NCBI RefSeq assembly: GCF_000265425.1
Contig: NC_018014.1
Location: 4,898,001-4,962,000, forward strand
Origin: Terriglobus roseus DSM 18391
Lineage (GTDB): Bacteria; Acidobacteriota; Terriglobia; Terriglobales; Acidobacteriaceae
Length of the DNA: 64,000 nucleotides
Direction of reading: 5' to 3'
Shown here piece by piece: positions 9,563 through 41,375 of the stretch. The notes under the pieces are model-generated. The model saw nothing but the letters and a program-made list of their open reading frames with translations, did no database searches and was not told where the DNA came from. A program made the translations under genes and the position numbers. The stretch's first letter is position 1. Each line of letters opens with the position of its first letter.

Positions 9563-9589
9563 AAGGCCTCACCGAATCGGTGAGGCCTT
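9563..9589. terminator. Strong orphan hairpin
   Basis: A 12-bp perfect stem AAGGCCTCACCG (9563-9574) / CGGTGAGGCCTT (9578-9589) with a nominal 3-base loop, followed by CGTCGTT. No annotated plus-strand gene lies within 250 bases upstream. It may be the end of an unannotated short RNA or a leftward terminator. Confidence 0.5.
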
Positions 9590-35055: not shown

Positions 35056-35213
35056 TCTATCGGCTGCCTACCGGGCTCGCATCACCCGCCCGGGTCAAAC
35101 GGGCTGCCCCGGAAAGGCACACGCGCGGAACGGTGCGCCGCTGCATACTAAGAGGGTTCACACAAACCATTCGACCCCGCCCAACGGCCCATAGACTTAC
35201 CCGGAACCGAACG

Positions 35214-35786
35214 ATGACGCTGCTCCGCCAAGCCCGCGCCCTGCCGAACCTACTCACGCTGGTACGGGTCATCGCCATCCCGTTCCTGGTGAAGGCCATG
35301 CTGCACCGGCGTGAGGAAGTGGCATTGCTCATCTTTGTGGTTGCCGGCGCAACCGACGCGGTTGACGGTCGGCTGGCGCGCCGGCTGAACCAGAGCACAA
35401 AGCTGGGACAATTCCTGGATCCCATCGCCGACAAGCTAATGCTCTCGACCCTCTTCCTGACTGCAACTTATATAGGACTGGTCCCGCTCTACGTCACCGT
35501 ACTGGTCTTCGCACGAGACGTCGGCATCCTCTTGATCGCCACACTGCTCTTCTTCTCCCACACCATGCGCGACTTTCGCCCCAGCGCCATCGGTAAAACG
35601 AACACCCTGGTGCAGATTTTCACCATGCTCCTGGTGATGGTGACGGCCGTCCGCACTACGCCGGAACTGTCGCATCTGCGACACAGCCTGCTGGTCATGA
35701 TCGCCTGGCTCGCCCCACTCTCCGCCGCGCAGTACGCTTGGGTGGTCATCCACCGCATCGGCACTGAGCCTCTGGAAGCGCTCTAG
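35214..35786 (+). CDS. pgsA: CDP-alcohol phosphatidyltransferase (PgsA-like)
   Basis: A 190-residue inner-membrane enzyme with about five hydrophobic helices. The family catalytic motif DG-x2-AR-x8-G-x3-D-x3-D is intact in VDGRLARRLNQSTKLGQFLD and the following PIAD. Members transfer a phosphatidyl group from CDP-diacylglycerol to an alcohol. The PNLLTLVRVIAIPFL start and overall size best fit phosphatidylglycerophosphate synthase, but cardiolipin synthase of the same fold cannot be excluded. ATG 35214 is used because upstream codons are arginine/proline-rich and not membrane-like. The ISC regulator operon begins 132 bases downstream. Confidence 0.85.
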   Translation: MTLLRQARALPNLLTLVRVIAIPFLVKAMLHRREEVALLIFVVAGATDAVDGRLARRLNQSTKLGQFLDPIADKLMLSTLFLTATYIGLVPLYVTVLVFARDVGILLIATLLFFSHTMRDFRPSAIGKTNTLVQIFTMLLVMVTAVRTTPELSHLRHSLLVMIAWLAPLSAAQYAWVVIHRIGTEPLEAL

Positions 35787-35809
35787 TCTGCATGGATCCC
35801 GCGCCCCTT

Positions 35810-35830
35810 CTTTGAGAATTATTCTCAAAG
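35810..35830. promoter_or_regulatory. Perfect palindrome, Fur-type 7-1-7 box
   Basis: The two arms are CTTTGAGAAT (35810-35819) and ATTCTCAAAG (35821-35830), with a single central T. The inner part is TGAGAAT-T-ATTCTCA, which fits the Fur-family 7-1-7 consensus TGATAAT-n-ATTATCA with one symmetric change per arm. Its centre is about 60 bases upstream of the predicted iscR transcription start. It is a likely binding site for Fur or a relative controlling the isc operon. Confidence 0.62.
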
Positions 35831-35845
35831 AACACCTCTTTGCCA

Positions 35846-35874
35846 TTGCAAGCGTCTGTTCCCGGGCCTACACT
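35846..35874 (+). promoter_or_regulatory. Predicted sigma-70-type promoter of iscR
   Basis: -35 TTGCAA (35846-35851), a 17-base spacer, and -10 TACACT (35869-35874). Transcription would start near 35881, about 38 bases before the iscR start codon. The Fur-type palindrome ends 15 bases upstream of the -35 box, a position that suits activation or upstream modulation better than simple occlusion. Confidence 0.55.
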
Positions 35875-35918
35875 TAGGACTGCACTGGTCGGATATCGTC
35901 CGGTCATGCTCTAAAACC

Positions 35919-36398
35919 ATGCTGCGGCTGACTAAAAAAGCGGATTACGGCCTGATGGCGCTGAAGTACCTGGCGGAGCAGGCGCTGCTGAGCGGCAAGA
36001 CCGGCGCCGCCAGCGCACAGTCTGCCAAGGACATCGCGGAGGCATATCACATCCCTCCTCAACTCCTTGCCAAGATTCTGCAGACGCTGGCCCGGCAGGG
36101 AATCCTTGCATCGCATGCCGGTACCAACGGCGGCTATGCGCTCGCCCGGCCCGCCACGGAAATCAACGCCTTTGAGGTTATTCGGGCCATTGACGGCCCC
36201 CTTTTCATTACCAGTTGCATCACGATTCACGGCACCTGCGACCTCGCGGGCCACTGCACCATCAAAGAGCCGCTACGCAAGGTGAATGACAGTATCAAAG
36301 ATTTGCTGACCGGCATCATCATCGCCGATCTGGCCGAAGTTCCAGACACAGAACCGACCACAACACTCGGCGGCGGTCTGGTCTCTATCGCTCTCTAA
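35919..36398 (+). CDS. iscR: Rrf2-family Fe-S regulator IscR
   Basis: A 159-residue Rrf2-type repressor/activator that senses [2Fe-2S] cluster supply. The winged helix covers about 1-75 ([36 protein letters not shown], and the wing [11 protein letters not shown]). Three cysteines that can hold the cluster are C100, C107 and C113 in [15 protein letters not shown]. With cluster bound, such proteins repress the ISC genes; apo-forms control other targets. It is the first gene of the isc series, 112 bases before iscS. There is no obvious Shine-Dalgarno before ATG 35919, but the start matches the family. Regulation is probably dual: autoregulation plus the Fur-type site upstream. Confidence 0.94.
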
Positions 36399-36510: not shown

Positions 36511-37779
36511 ATGAGCCTCGCCACCGAAATCGAACTGCTGGAGTCCACGCCCGTGCATAAGGGCGTTCAGTTGCCCATCTATATGGACAACCATGCCACC
36601 ACGGCGCTTGACCCGCGCGTGCTGGAAGCAATGCTGCCGTACATGACCAAGATCTACGGCAACGCCGCCAGCCGCAATCACCAGTTTGGGTGGGAAGCTG
36701 AGCAGGGCGTCGAACTGGCCCGCGAACAGATCGCAAAGCTCATCGGTGCCACGCCGAAGGAGATCATCTTCACCTCCGGCGCGACCGAAGGCAACAACCT
36801 CGCCATCAAGGGCGTCGCCGAGATGTACCGCGAAAAGGGCAACCACATCATCACCCAGGTGACCGAGCACAAGGCTGTGCTGGATACCTGTAAGCGCCTG
36901 GAAAAGAACGGTTACAAGGTAACCTACCTTCCCGTTCAGCCCGATGGCCTGGTCTCCGTTGCCGACATTGAAGCAGCTATGACGACCGAGACCATCCTGG
37001 TCACGATCATGTACGCGAACAACGAGATCGGCGTGGTCAACCCCATCGCCGAGATCGGTAAGCTCTGCCACGCCAAGGGCGTTCTCTTCCACACGGATGG
37101 CGTGCAGGCTGTAGGCAAGATCCCGGTCAACGTGCAGACGGACAACATCGACCTGCTGTCGCTGACTGCACACAAGATTTACGGCCCCAAGGGTGTGGGC
37201 GCGCTGTACGTTCGCCGCCGCAATCCGCGTGTCCAACTGAACGCACAGATCGACGGCGGCGGCCATGAGCGCGGCATGCGTTCCGGAACGCTGAATGTCG
37301 CCGGCATCGTCGGCCTCGGTAAGGCCTGCGAGATCGCCGGCGCAGAGATGGAAGCCGAGATCGCACGCCTGACCGGTCTGCGTGACTACATGCGCGGCAA
37401 GTTTGAGGCAGCGCTGGACTACATTGCGGTCAACGGCAACATGGATCACCACCTGCCCGGCAACCTGAACATGAGCTTCGTCTACGTCGAGGGCGAGTCG
37501 CTCCTGATGGGCATCAATGACATCGCGGTCTCATCCGGTTCGGCCTGCACCTCCGCCACGCTGGAGCCGTCGTATGTTCTCAAGGCGCTGGGCCTTGGCG
37601 ACGACGTCGCTCACTCGTCCATCCGCTTCGGTCTTGGCCGCTTCAATACCAAGGAAGAAGTGGACTATGTTGCCGACAAGCTGATCGACACTGTTCTGAA
37701 GCTGCGCGAACTGTCGCCGCTATACGAGATGGTCAAGGAAGGCATTGACCTTACCAAGATCGAGTGGACCGCTCACTAA
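36511..37779 (+). CDS. iscS: Cysteine desulfurase IscS
   Basis: A 422-residue class-V PLP enzyme that removes sulfur from cysteine and hands it to IscU. The PLP lysine is K222 in [12 protein letters not shown] and the persulfide cysteine is C346 in [12 protein letters not shown]. The protein ends LTKIEWTAH, the IscU-binding tail that distinguishes IscS from SufS and NifS. A ribosome site AGGAG lies 10 bases before ATG 36511; the frame is open upstream but not conserved. About 15 residues precede the usual start of the fold ([10 protein letters not shown]). It lies between iscR and a small membrane protein gene. Confidence 0.97.
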
Positions 37780-38057: not shown

Positions 38058-38480
38058 ATGGCATATAGCGATAAGGTTGTTGATCACTACGAAAACCCCC
38101 GCAACGTCGGCACGCTCGACAAGAGCTCGTCCGAGGTTGGCACCGGCCTGGTCGGTGCACCGGAGTGCGGCGACGTCATGCGTCTCCAGATCAAGGTGAA
38201 CCCGGATACCCAGGTCATCGAAGACGCGAAGTTTAAGACCTTCGGCTGCGGCTCCGCCATTGCCTCTTCGTCGCTTGCGACCGAGTGGGTGAAGGGCAAG
38301 ACGGTTGCCGAGGCTCTCGCAATCTCGAACACGGAGATCGTGAAGGAACTCGCACTTCCCCCGGTCAAGATTCACTGCTCGGTTCTGGCGGAAGACGCCA
38401 TCCGCGCCGCGATCGGTGACTGGAAGAAGAAGAACAACGTTGCCGAGACTGAGCCCGCGCTCGTCGGCGCATCCGCGTAA
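38058..38480 (+). CDS. iscU: Fe-S scaffold protein IscU
   Basis: A 140-residue scaffold on which [2Fe-2S] clusters are built. The three cluster cysteines are C37 (APECGD, with D39 next to it), C64 (FGCGSAIAS) and C107 (KIHCSVL). LPPVK at 100-104 is the HscA recognition motif, which matches the presence of hscA and hscB in this window. AGGAGACGAAC precedes the ATG. The C-terminal 10-12 residues are an extra acidic/alanine tail. It is transcribed with iscS upstream and the secreted protein gene downstream. Confidence 0.97.
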   Translation: MAYSDKVVDHYENPRNVGTLDKSSSEVGTGLVGAPECGDVMRLQIKVNPDTQVIEDAKFKTFGCGSAIASSSLATEWVKGKTVAEALAISNTEIVKELALPPVKIHCSVLAEDAIRAAIGDWKKKNNVAETEPALVGASA

Positions 38481-39195: not shown

Positions 39196-39669
39196 ATGTC
39201 CGTAGTCGGCATCAGCACCACCACCAGCAACGAGATGAGCGCGCCCGCACCGCAGGCCGGCGCTCCCGTGTACTCCAGTCCCATCGCTCCGCCGGTATCC
39301 GCACCCGCCGACAATGCGAAGGCGCAGAACATCCAGGTTACTGAGAAGGCGCTCAAGCGCATCCGCGCCGCCATGGCGAAAGAGAACGTAAACGGGGAGC
39401 AGGGCGGTCTGCGCGTCGGCATCACTGGCGGCGGCTGCAGTGGACTCAGCTACAACATCCGATTCGATTCGCAGCCGCGCGAGCGTGACCGCGTCTACGT
39501 CTACGCGCAGGATGGCGACAAGGTTCAGATCTTCGTCGACCCGAAATCGTTCCTCTACCTCAGCGGCATGACGCTCGACTTTGAAGAGACGCTGATGCGC
39601 CAGGGCTTCAACTTCATCAACCCGCACAGCACCAAGAGCTGCGGCTGCGGATCGTCTTTCACAGCGTAA
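39196..39669 (+). CDS. iscA: A-type Fe-S carrier IscA
   Basis: A 157-residue A-type carrier. The conserved domain starts near residue 46 (IQVTEKALKRIRAAM) and contains C81 in GGGCSGLSY and the closing pair C149 and C151 in SCGCGSSF, the three ligands for iron or a cluster. The first 45 residues are a serine/alanine/proline-rich extension not present in Escherichia coli IscA (107 residues), probably disordered. AAAGGAACATCC precedes the ATG. IscA delivers clusters from IscU to targets, mainly [4Fe-4S] enzymes such as the endonuclease III-like protein here. Confidence 0.95.
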   Translation: MSVVGISTTTSNEMSAPAPQAGAPVYSSPIAPPVSAPADNAKAQNIQVTEKALKRIRAAMAKENVNGEQGGLRVGITGGGCSGLSYNIRFDSQPRERDRVYVYAQDGDKVQIFVDPKSFLYLSGMTLDFEETLMRQGFNFINPHSTKSCGCGSSFTA

Positions 39670-39695: not shown

Positions 39696-39902
39696 GTGCC
39701 CATCAAGTTCCTATCCGTTGAGAAAGTCAGGTTCGATGAGGACCGGCTGAAAGAAGCACACTATTGGGCTTCTAAGTCGGTAGCGGAACGCGTGATCGCG
39801 GGCTGGGAACTCGCAGACGAGGACTTCCGCTTGAGAGAGGGCGATGAGCCGAAGGGACGAACAGCTAGCACTCTTCGCCGCGTTCCACGCAGCGGGAGTT
39901 GA
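39696..39902 (+). CDS. Small protein upstream of the nucleotidyltransferase
   Basis: A 68-residue frame starting with GTG: PIKFLSVEKVRFDED, then an amphipathic helix (LKEAHYWASKSVAERVIAGWELADEDF) and a basic end. No family is recognised. It overlaps the following nucleotidyltransferase gene by 59 bases in another frame. Size, order and overlap resemble the antitoxin position of nucleotidyltransferase-type toxin pairs. Codon usage in the last 20 codons, inside the overlap, is not informative. It may be a real short gene or only a frame with a plausible start. Confidence 0.45.
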   Translation: MPIKFLSVEKVRFDEDRLKEAHYWASKSVAERVIAGWELADEDFRLREGDEPKGRTASTLRRVPRSGS

Positions 39903-40323
39903 ATACGCAGTGGTTGGAGGCGTTGCAGTAAACGCCCATGGCTTCGTGCGGAATACTCGCGATCTCGACATCTTCCTGCGACCCACGGTGGAGAACGCTC
40001 ATGCGGCATTCAATGCCCTTAAAGCGCTTGGCGCACCCGTGGAAGGCCTTGAGGCCACCGATCTCCTCACCGATGACGGCCAATACCAGTTCCAGACGGA
40101 GTTCAACCGAGTTGACCTTCTCACCTTTATCGGCGAAATGCAGTTCGACACGGTTTGGCGGAACCGCGTCGACACGGAGATCGACGGTGTTCCCGTACGG
40201 TTCATCTCGAGAACAGATCTCATCGAGAACAAACGCCAGGTCGGCAGACTGATTGACTTGGCAGATGTCGAGCAGCTTTCCGTAATCCCCGAGGCGGACC
40301 AGCTGCGCTTGCAAGAGGACTAG
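39844..40323 (+). CDS. Nucleotidyltransferase-fold protein (AbiEii/MNT-like)
   Basis: A 159-residue protein with the nucleotidyltransferase core: VEYAVVGGVAVNAHGFVRNT followed by DLDIFL, that is the GG(S/V) helix start and the D-x-D metal pair. The second half has RVDLLTFIGEMQFDTVW and a lysine-rich C-terminal helix (DLIENKRQVGRLIDLADVEQL). Single-domain proteins like this occur as AbiEii-like toxins, MNT antitoxins or stand-alone nucleotidyltransferases of unknown role. GAGAGGGCG precedes ATG 39844. It lies between iscA and an acetyltransferase gene on the isc strand, with the small overlapping frame upstream. Confidence 0.77.
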   Translation: MSRRDEQLALFAAFHAAGVEYAVVGGVAVNAHGFVRNTRDLDIFLRPTVENAHAAFNALKALGAPVEGLEATDLLTDDGQYQFQTEFNRVDLLTFIGEMQFDTVWRNRVDTEIDGVPVRFISRTDLIENKRQVGRLIDLADVEQLSVIPEADQLRLQED

Positions 40324-40326
40324 CCG

Positions 40327-40770
40327 GTGACTATGGAGTATCTGCATACTGCCGAACACCCAGCTACCCGCACTCCCGCCCGCTACTACCGGATGGTCAG
40401 TCCTGACGGCGAGCACGTCGGCAACATCAATCTCCGCCTCGACAACTCTGAAGCGATCACCCGCTACGCGGGCCACATTGGCTACGAGGTACTACCCGAA
40501 CACCGCGGGCACCGCTACGCCGCAAATGCCGTCCGCCTCATGATCCCCATCGCGCGCGAGCACGGCATCGATCCGCTCTGGATCACTTGCGATCCGGGAA
40601 ATACAGCCTCCCGCCGCACGCTGGAACTCGCCGGTGCGGAGTACGTCGAGACCGTCTCCGTTCTCTATAACAACGCCATCTTTCTCGCGGGCCATCCCCG
40701 CAAGTGTCGCTACCGGCTTCAAACCGCGCAAGAATCCAATGCGCACAAAGTACCATCGGAACAACCATGA
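40327..40770 (+). CDS. GNAT-family N-acetyltransferase
   Basis: A 147-residue acetyltransferase. The acetyl-CoA loop is HIGYEVLPEHRGHRYAANAV, and ITCDPGNTASRRTLELAGA is the following conserved helix. It transfers an acetyl group to an amine of unknown identity. The start is GTG 40327, with GAGGA 7 bases upstream, only 3 bases after the nucleotidyltransferase stop; ATG 40333 is an alternative. Its stop codon overlaps the hscB start (ATGA, 40767-40770), so translation of hscB is coupled to it. Confidence 0.86.
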   Translation: MTMEYLHTAEHPATRTPARYYRMVSPDGEHVGNINLRLDNSEAITRYAGHIGYEVLPEHRGHRYAANAVRLMIPIAREHGIDPLWITCDPGNTASRRTLELAGAEYVETVSVLYNNAIFLAGHPRKCRYRLQTAQESNAHKVPSEQP

Positions 40771-41375
40771 CCTACTTCGAAGTCTTCTCGTTGCCGCCCA
40801 AATTACAGATCGACACCGCCGCACTTGAGAAGACTTTCTACAAGCTGTCGCGCGAGTTCCACCCCGACCGCTTCGCCTCAAAGCCCGCGGAAGAACAGGC
40901 CGCAGCAACCGAAAAATCTTCCCTGCTGAACGACGCCTATCGCGCGCTGCGTGATCCCATCCGCCGCACCGAATACCTGCTGGAGCAGGAGGGCGTTGAG
41001 CTGGAAGAGCAGTCCGTCAAGGCCACGGAGTCTGCCCGCGCGGCCGGTACGCAGAAGAAACAGATCGTCCCGCCCGATCTGCTGGAAGAGGCCTTTGAGC
41101 TGAACATGGCCCTCGAAGAGATGAAAATGGCGAAGAAGATGGGCGACGACGACCCGCAGCTTCGCAAGGATCTTGAAACAGCGAAGTCCAACTTCACCAA
41201 CATGCTCGATGCCTCTGGCCGTGAGCTGGAAGCGCTGTGGACCAGTTGGGATGCGGCCGTGGATAGCGGTGACGACGGCGCGAAAGACGCCGCGAAGGAT
41301 GAGATGGTGGCGCTGCTCAATCGCCGCAGCTATCTGCGCAACCTGGTTCGTGACGTAAACGCAACACTCGAATAG
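40767..41375 (+). CDS. hscB: J-domain co-chaperone HscB
   Basis: A 202-residue co-chaperone that brings IscU to HscA and stimulates its ATPase. The J-domain is N-terminal with the HPD triplet at 32-34 (SREFHPDRF). The C-terminal helical bundle (about 95-200) contains the conserved FELNMALEEM and the NRRSYLRNLVRDV end. The length is slightly above Escherichia coli HscB (171). ATG 40767 overlaps the acetyltransferase stop by 4 bases. In most bacteria hscB is adjacent to hscA; here seven other features and 3.5 kb lie between them. Confidence 0.94.
   Translation: MTYFEVFSLPPKLQIDTAALEKTFYKLSREFHPDRFASKPAEEQAAATEKSSLLNDAYRALRDPIRRTEYLLEQEGVELEEQSVKATESARAAGTQKKQIVPPDLLEEAFELNMALEEMKMAKKMGDDDPQLRKDLETAKSNFTNMLDASGRELEALWTSWDAAVDSGDDGAKDAAKDEMVALLNRRSYLRNLVRDVNATLE

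Follow-up and report, generated by a model that had tools for sequence, protein, structure and literature searches.

The iscR gene of the soil bacterium Terriglobus roseus DSM 18391 is preceded by a perfect palindrome, and this locus raises the question of which protein reads that element and to what effect on the Fe-S assembly operon downstream. The window, which is the whole 64-kb stretch of DNA that was analysed, contains TTCTTTGAGAATTATTCTCAAAGAA at 35808-35832 (no strand assigned), read from the sequence as a candidate PerR-type operator of the Fur superfamily. It consists of TTCTTTGAGAAT-T-ATTCTCAAAGAA, 25 bp in which both 12-base arms match perfectly (12-1-12). The original prediction described 10-base arms at 35810-35830, and these are real, being the inner portion of the 12-base arms. 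Its TGAGAAT-n-ATTCTCA core was likewise found, as TGAGAATTATTCTCA at 35813-35827 (no strand assigned). With an AAT-N-ATT centre and 7-base arms in inverted symmetry, TGAGAAT-T-ATTCTCA has the 7-1-7 form of the Fur superfamily.

The palindrome is the second-longest perfect one in the window. When 64-kb sequences were simulated 60 times with a first-order Markov model, a perfect palindrome with arms of at least 12 bases arose in a single run. The longest, at 9563-9589 (AAGGCCTCACCGAATCGGTGAGGCCTT, 13-1-13), is G+C-rich and is perhaps a terminator. Genome-wide scans for the box were done by pattern. In the genome's own 5.23 Mb, no second copy of the core was found with fewer than two mismatches. 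At three mismatches the loose pattern fell mostly in background-like places, five of the best of which were inspected. A conserved island in divergent relatives, described below, is more decisive for the reality of the palindrome than such chance statistics. The palindrome is a real and conserved candidate operator, new in its place and combination and not in its kind.

The element lies in the gap that separates a pgsA-like gene, whose stop at 35786 is 21 bases away, from iscR, which starts at 35919. The upstream gene (35133-35786, plus strand) encodes a CDP-alcohol phosphatidyltransferase (PF01066, E 1.2e-32); the pgsA model TIGR00560 gives 99 bits, which is under the cut-off. The iscR-type gene (35919-36398, plus strand) encodes an Rrf2 regulator of 159 aa with three Cys (PF02082, E 2.5e-29). 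This protein passes the Rrf2 superfamily cut-off (TIGR00738) and stays under the cut-offs of the equivalogs IscR (TIGR02010, 57.5 of 207.6 bits), RirA (71.6 of 193 bits) and suf_reg_Xantho. The name iscR was given because of its operon place and its three cysteines. It is followed on the plus strand by iscS cysteine desulfurase (36511-37779; NF010611, 657 bits), iscU scaffold (38058-38480; TIGR01999, 214 bits), an iscA-type Fe-S carrier (39196-39669; TIGR00049, 109 bits), and hscB co-chaperone (40704-41375; TIGR00714, 69 bits), each above its cut-off. Nucleotidyltransferase-like and GNAT-like genes (39844-40770), by their look unrelated to Fe-S, separate iscA from hscB.

The promoter placed here by the original prediction was confirmed. 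The -35 hexamer TTGCAA (35846-35851, plus strand), where TTTGCC[AG]TTGC is conserved in eight divergent relatives, begins 15 bases after 35830. It is separated by 17 bases from the -10 hexamer TACACT (35869-35874, plus strand), where GCCTA[CGA]ACT is conserved. An antisense sigma70-like promoter can also be read on the minus strand at 35818-35846 (ATGGCA, 17, AATAAT; 9/12), with its -10 inside the palindrome. The isc-suf operon of Rhodobacter sphaeroides is influenced by antisense promoters (PMC6956336).

As judged by a search for SUF as the alternative, ISC appears to be the sole Fe-S assembly system in Terriglobus: a SufB/D match was found in 0 of 19 genomes of the genus and in all 14 control genomes.

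Conservation of the box was explored at iscR loci drawn from 61 related whole genomes and from named contigs (Terriglobus, Granulicella, Edaphobacter, and others). This search for the palindrome in relatives with the same promoter had been proposed together with the site itself, and the palindrome is kept in the close Terriglobus relatives. Nearly every iscR promoter of Terriglobus carries the box in a strong or a weak form, with weak versions in three genomes (G004, G006, and G011). Its centre lies 49 bp from the -10 in 10 of 17 genomes, 48 bp in one, 42 bp in four, and 38 bp in one. From the centre to the start of the -35, the distance is 26, 19, or 15 bp, as counted by eye on aligned Terriglobus upstream regions. 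The first and last of these spacings are roughly one helical turn apart, a series into which 19 does not fall. When eight divergent Terriglobus upstream regions were aligned on the -10, the only conserved islands were the box, the -35 region, and the -10. In these eight, the spacing between box and promoter is constant while the distance to the ATG varies from 44 to 64. The promoter-proximal half-site is the better conserved half of the box. In Terriglobus the box is thus a phylogenetic footprint, held mostly at a fixed promoter distance while the neighbouring sequence diverges. At iscR in other Acidobacteriaceae nearly all loci are without the box, and a good one was found only in G035. In Edaphobacter and Granulicella, a separate motif, CTTGTCAAC, recurs far upstream of iscR (L047, L074, L081, L085, L098, and others).

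A second candidate site was found at the same promoter. Outside Terriglobus, 70 of 85 iscR upstream regions carry a GACT-N5-AGTC-like palindrome, which is the form of known IscR type-1 sites. A matrix built from these 70 gives 18.4 for ACTTAGGACTGCACTGGTCGGATAT at 35872-35896 (no strand assigned) and at most 6.7 for the window background. This IscR type-1-like site has the GACT-N5-AGTC-like form and covers both the presumed start of transcription and the last bases of the -10. Neither it nor the longer arms of the palindrome had been part of the original prediction. The site is missing in 9 of 17 Terriglobus genomes (G013, G003, G008, G011, G004, G001, G007, G014, and G018), and the box, or a variant of it, persists in all nine.

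Which Fur-family proteins are available to read the box can be seen from the genomes. A core Fur-family gene is present in 17 of 19 Terriglobus genomes, often as the only Fur-family gene, and an accessory one is additionally found in some. The two without the core gene (G014 and G010) are incomplete genomes (70 and 89%) that yielded an accessory or partial match only. In the genome studied, the core gene lies beyond the window (G000:C1:876563-876991). The best PDB match of its protein is PerR of Bacillus subtilis (2FE3, E 1e-19). Position 104 is Asp in PerR and Glu in Fur. All 41 distinct core proteins have Asp at this position, and the accessory proteins, except L002, have Glu. The core protein retains His37, His91, His93, and the four Zn Cys, with Asp85 changed to Glu. 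Its best NCBIfam model is PerR (NF052545), at 87 of 180 bits. Because the cut-off of this curated model is missed, the protein is called PerR-like and is not certified as PerR. A second Fur-family gene of the genome (L002 1471-1917; G000:C1:2081473) lies directly before katG. Its protein carries Asn in place of D104 of PerR, and the other Terriglobus genomes showed nothing of this type. Gene pairs of furA and katG occur in other bacteria.

Boxes of the same type precede peroxide-related genes in the relatives. In other Acidobacteriaceae, AAACGATAATNATTATCGTTT stands before core perR at a position that hardly varies, and exact GATAA[GT]N[AC]TTATC sites in 100 genomes of the family include ten within about 50 bp upstream of perR. 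One Terriglobus group has ACGATAA[GA]AATTATCGT before perR. At 13 of 25 loci, the gene after perR encodes an AhpC-type peroxiredoxin. In G005, G013, and G008 the two genes stand apart, and there ahpC has its own box with scores of 17.0 to 20.8. These three are close relatives of the genome studied, and their ahpC box can be written GACAATAA[CT]AATTCTTGTT; G013 and G008 have GGACAATAANAATTCTTGTTC before ahpC and G005 has its core. Among the peroxiredoxins matched by PF10417 most are without a box, and only the AhpC type has one. For katG, the box is strong in G007 and weaker in G006 and G011. The boxes at perR, ahpC, and katG are a putative small regulon of PerR-like character.

In the genome studied, perR and katG were searched for the box and none was found, ahpC was not located, and no clear site of this kind was found apart from the iscR box. 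Because of this, the suggested link between box and PerR rests on relatives.

A set of 11 perR boxes, all from outside Terriglobus, served to train a matrix, which gives its top score in the 64 kb, 14.2, to the window palindrome, with the runner-up at 11.1. Applied to iscR upstream regions, it gives a mean of 17.3 for 17 from Terriglobus and of 1.9 for 84 others; the P of 2e-10 for this comparison is too good, as related genomes were counted as independent. Many boxes of relatives outscore that of the window because the window lineage has GAGAAT for GATAAT in both arms. By this matrix the palindrome is classed with the perR boxes, and its flanks and one core base differ. Outside GA[TG]AAT, the iscR boxes have TTT where the perR boxes have AAC.

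Taken jointly, the evidence makes it quite probable that the palindrome is an operator of the core PerR-like protein, released by iron loss or H2O2, and that feedback by IscR acts alongside it at the start of transcription. Two sensors, one of PerR type and IscR, would probably control one essential operon. Fe(II)-bound PerR, when peroxide is absent, would occupy the box, which lies some 61 bp before the presumed start of transcription, and would determine the rate at which the promoter at 35846-35874 is used. Iron loss or oxidation by H2O2 would free it from the box. IscR, the product of the first gene of the operon, would feed back the Fe-S supply through the site at the start point. Binding of the palindrome by PerR, the response to iron and peroxide, and the sign of control are inferred. 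The sequence directly shows that the palindrome exists, is conserved together with the promoter and matches the perR and ahpC boxes, that the core protein has PerR-like residues, that an IscR-type site is present, and that SUF is absent.

As to the sign, a simple repressor would not usually act from a box with its centre near -61, and this position and the fixed spacing would allow activation. The analysis leans only slightly towards repression relieved by iron shortage or peroxide, over iron-dependent activation, because peroxide should not switch off the sole Fe-S system; with SUF absent, a shut-off of ISC by peroxide would be unlikely. The original prediction had suggested that iron status tunes or activates the operon. 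The upstream position fits this idea, and the nearest experimental precedent, in Streptococcus mutans (PMC11631912), is repression. A further reading is that PerR captured the ISC operon of SUF-less Terriglobus as an Fe-dependent activator near -61, replacing IscR autorepression in about half of the species. This is conceivable but unlikely; if true, it would represent a regulatory handover in progress within one genus.

Three other explanations of the palindrome were weighed. It could be a classical iron-sensing Fur box, from which upstream Fe-Fur would tune or activate the isc operon. The relatives share the consensus TTTGATAATNATTATCAAA, whose layout is the 7-1-7 of Fur boxes, and the box is located upstream of the -35. 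The G in place of T at the second core position is also Fur-like, as judged by B. subtilis boxes. Against this, the one Fur-family protein of many Terriglobus genomes is PerR-like with Asp at 104, the genus, where each genome has 0-9 near matches, showed no set of iron-uptake genes with the box, and the recognisable neighbours are perR, ahpC, and katG. The other near matches in Terriglobus lie mostly within genes or beside transposons, and a global Fur regulon was rejected on this account and for want of an iron-uptake set. An iron-sensing Fur is thus an improbable reader of the box. From the original assignment to the Fur family, the superfamily form stands; a Fur of iron uptake does not, and a PerR-type protein is likelier, as it is often the sole Fur-family protein.

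Slighter still are the chances that the Rrf2 regulator of the operon, being IscR/RirA-like, binds the palindrome as a second class of operator. The core formally matches the RirA operator TGA-N9-TCA (PMC6386902), although this pattern is very loose and the Terriglobus box type, unlike that Rrf2-read operator, is longer and common to perR and ahpC. One strong site per genome would suit autoregulation, and the regulator (P0001) does better with the RirA and suf_reg_Xantho models than with the IscR models, all under cut-off. Yet orthologues outside Terriglobus, about 80% identical and with the same helix-turn-helix, are without the box. They use GAC[TC]-N5-[AG]GTC sites (70 of 85), a form also present in the window, and the box type, found before perR, ahpC, and katG, was predicted by a matrix trained on perR. 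An element that no protein reads, either a transcription terminator of pgsA or an AT-rich UP element for RNA polymerase, is very improbable. The inverted repeat does lie 21 bases past the pgsA stop, and it is AT-rich and 5' of the -35. But there is no T-run and no terminator call at the palindrome, the element is kept beside different or divergent upstream genes (G002, G009, G012, and G017), and arm changes occur across relatives without compensation. The terminator was rejected on the missing signal and on this persistence with different neighbours. UP elements span roughly -60 to -38, and neither the centre near -61 nor the palindromic consensus suits one; a similar motif also precedes perR.

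The proposed arrangement, control of the isc promoter by a PerR-like protein and IscR, can be compared with known systems. The iscRSUA promoter of Escherichia coli, an organism with SUF as a second Fe-S system, is not known to carry a direct Fur or PerR box. The likeness lies in the IscR type site at the promoter and the feedback from Fe-S supply (scheme: PMC8262890). PerR control of Fe-S assembly itself is already known from S. mutans, where PerR binds and represses sufCDSUB (PMC11631912). As there, the sole Fe-S operon of Terriglobus would have a PerR box at its promoter, read by a PerR-type protein of the Fur family. The S. mutans operon is SUF and not ISC, its box adjoins an extended -10 and is not near -61, and its repression is demonstrated, while repression in Terriglobus is a tentative prediction. 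An Rrf2 regulator as first operon gene is particular to Terriglobus. As in the Fur and PerR boxes of B. subtilis, two heptamers are inverted around one base, and the relatives have the TGATAAT core; the half-site of the window is TGAGAAT, and the PerR consensus of the literature is TTATAATNATTATAA (PMC11631912, PMC545781). Because PerR boxes vary between lineages (PMC545781), this departure is no objection. The isc-suf operon of R. sphaeroides also combines an Rrf2 protein, a Fur-family protein, and a peroxide sensor (IscR, Irr, OxyR), with Irr at the isc promoter (PMC6956336). Unlike Terriglobus, it uses the different proteins Irr and OxyR, several promoters, and a merged isc-suf operon. The isc-suf operon of Caulobacter is without direct Fur control (PMC11475020), which speaks against generality. 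In the literature, no direct report was found of PerR with isc, or of PerR in Terriglobus.

Fe-S assembly needs to be raised when peroxide or iron shortage harms the clusters. Many model bacteria hold a second, stress-proof Fe-S system, SUF. Terriglobus is without SUF, so its single ISC operon must serve both jobs. A PerR-type box beside, and sometimes instead of, an IscR site would be a simple candidate solution. If true, this would be a second, independent instance after S. mutans of PerR at a sole Fe-S operon, and the series of close species allows regulator exchange to be tested at an essential operon.

A further product of the analysis is a consensus for the box of the PerR-like protein in Acidobacteriaceae. 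One member of the family, G080, has eleven exact GATAA[GT]N[AC]TTATC boxes versus 0-3 in the other 99 genomes, which seems to indicate a broad Fur-type regulon in that organism. The box TTTGATAATCGTTATC[AG]AC is found about 120 bp before a gene for an ECF-type sigma factor in G015 and G012 (among L133, L145, and L148). It is also present in G009 and is possibly a further target.
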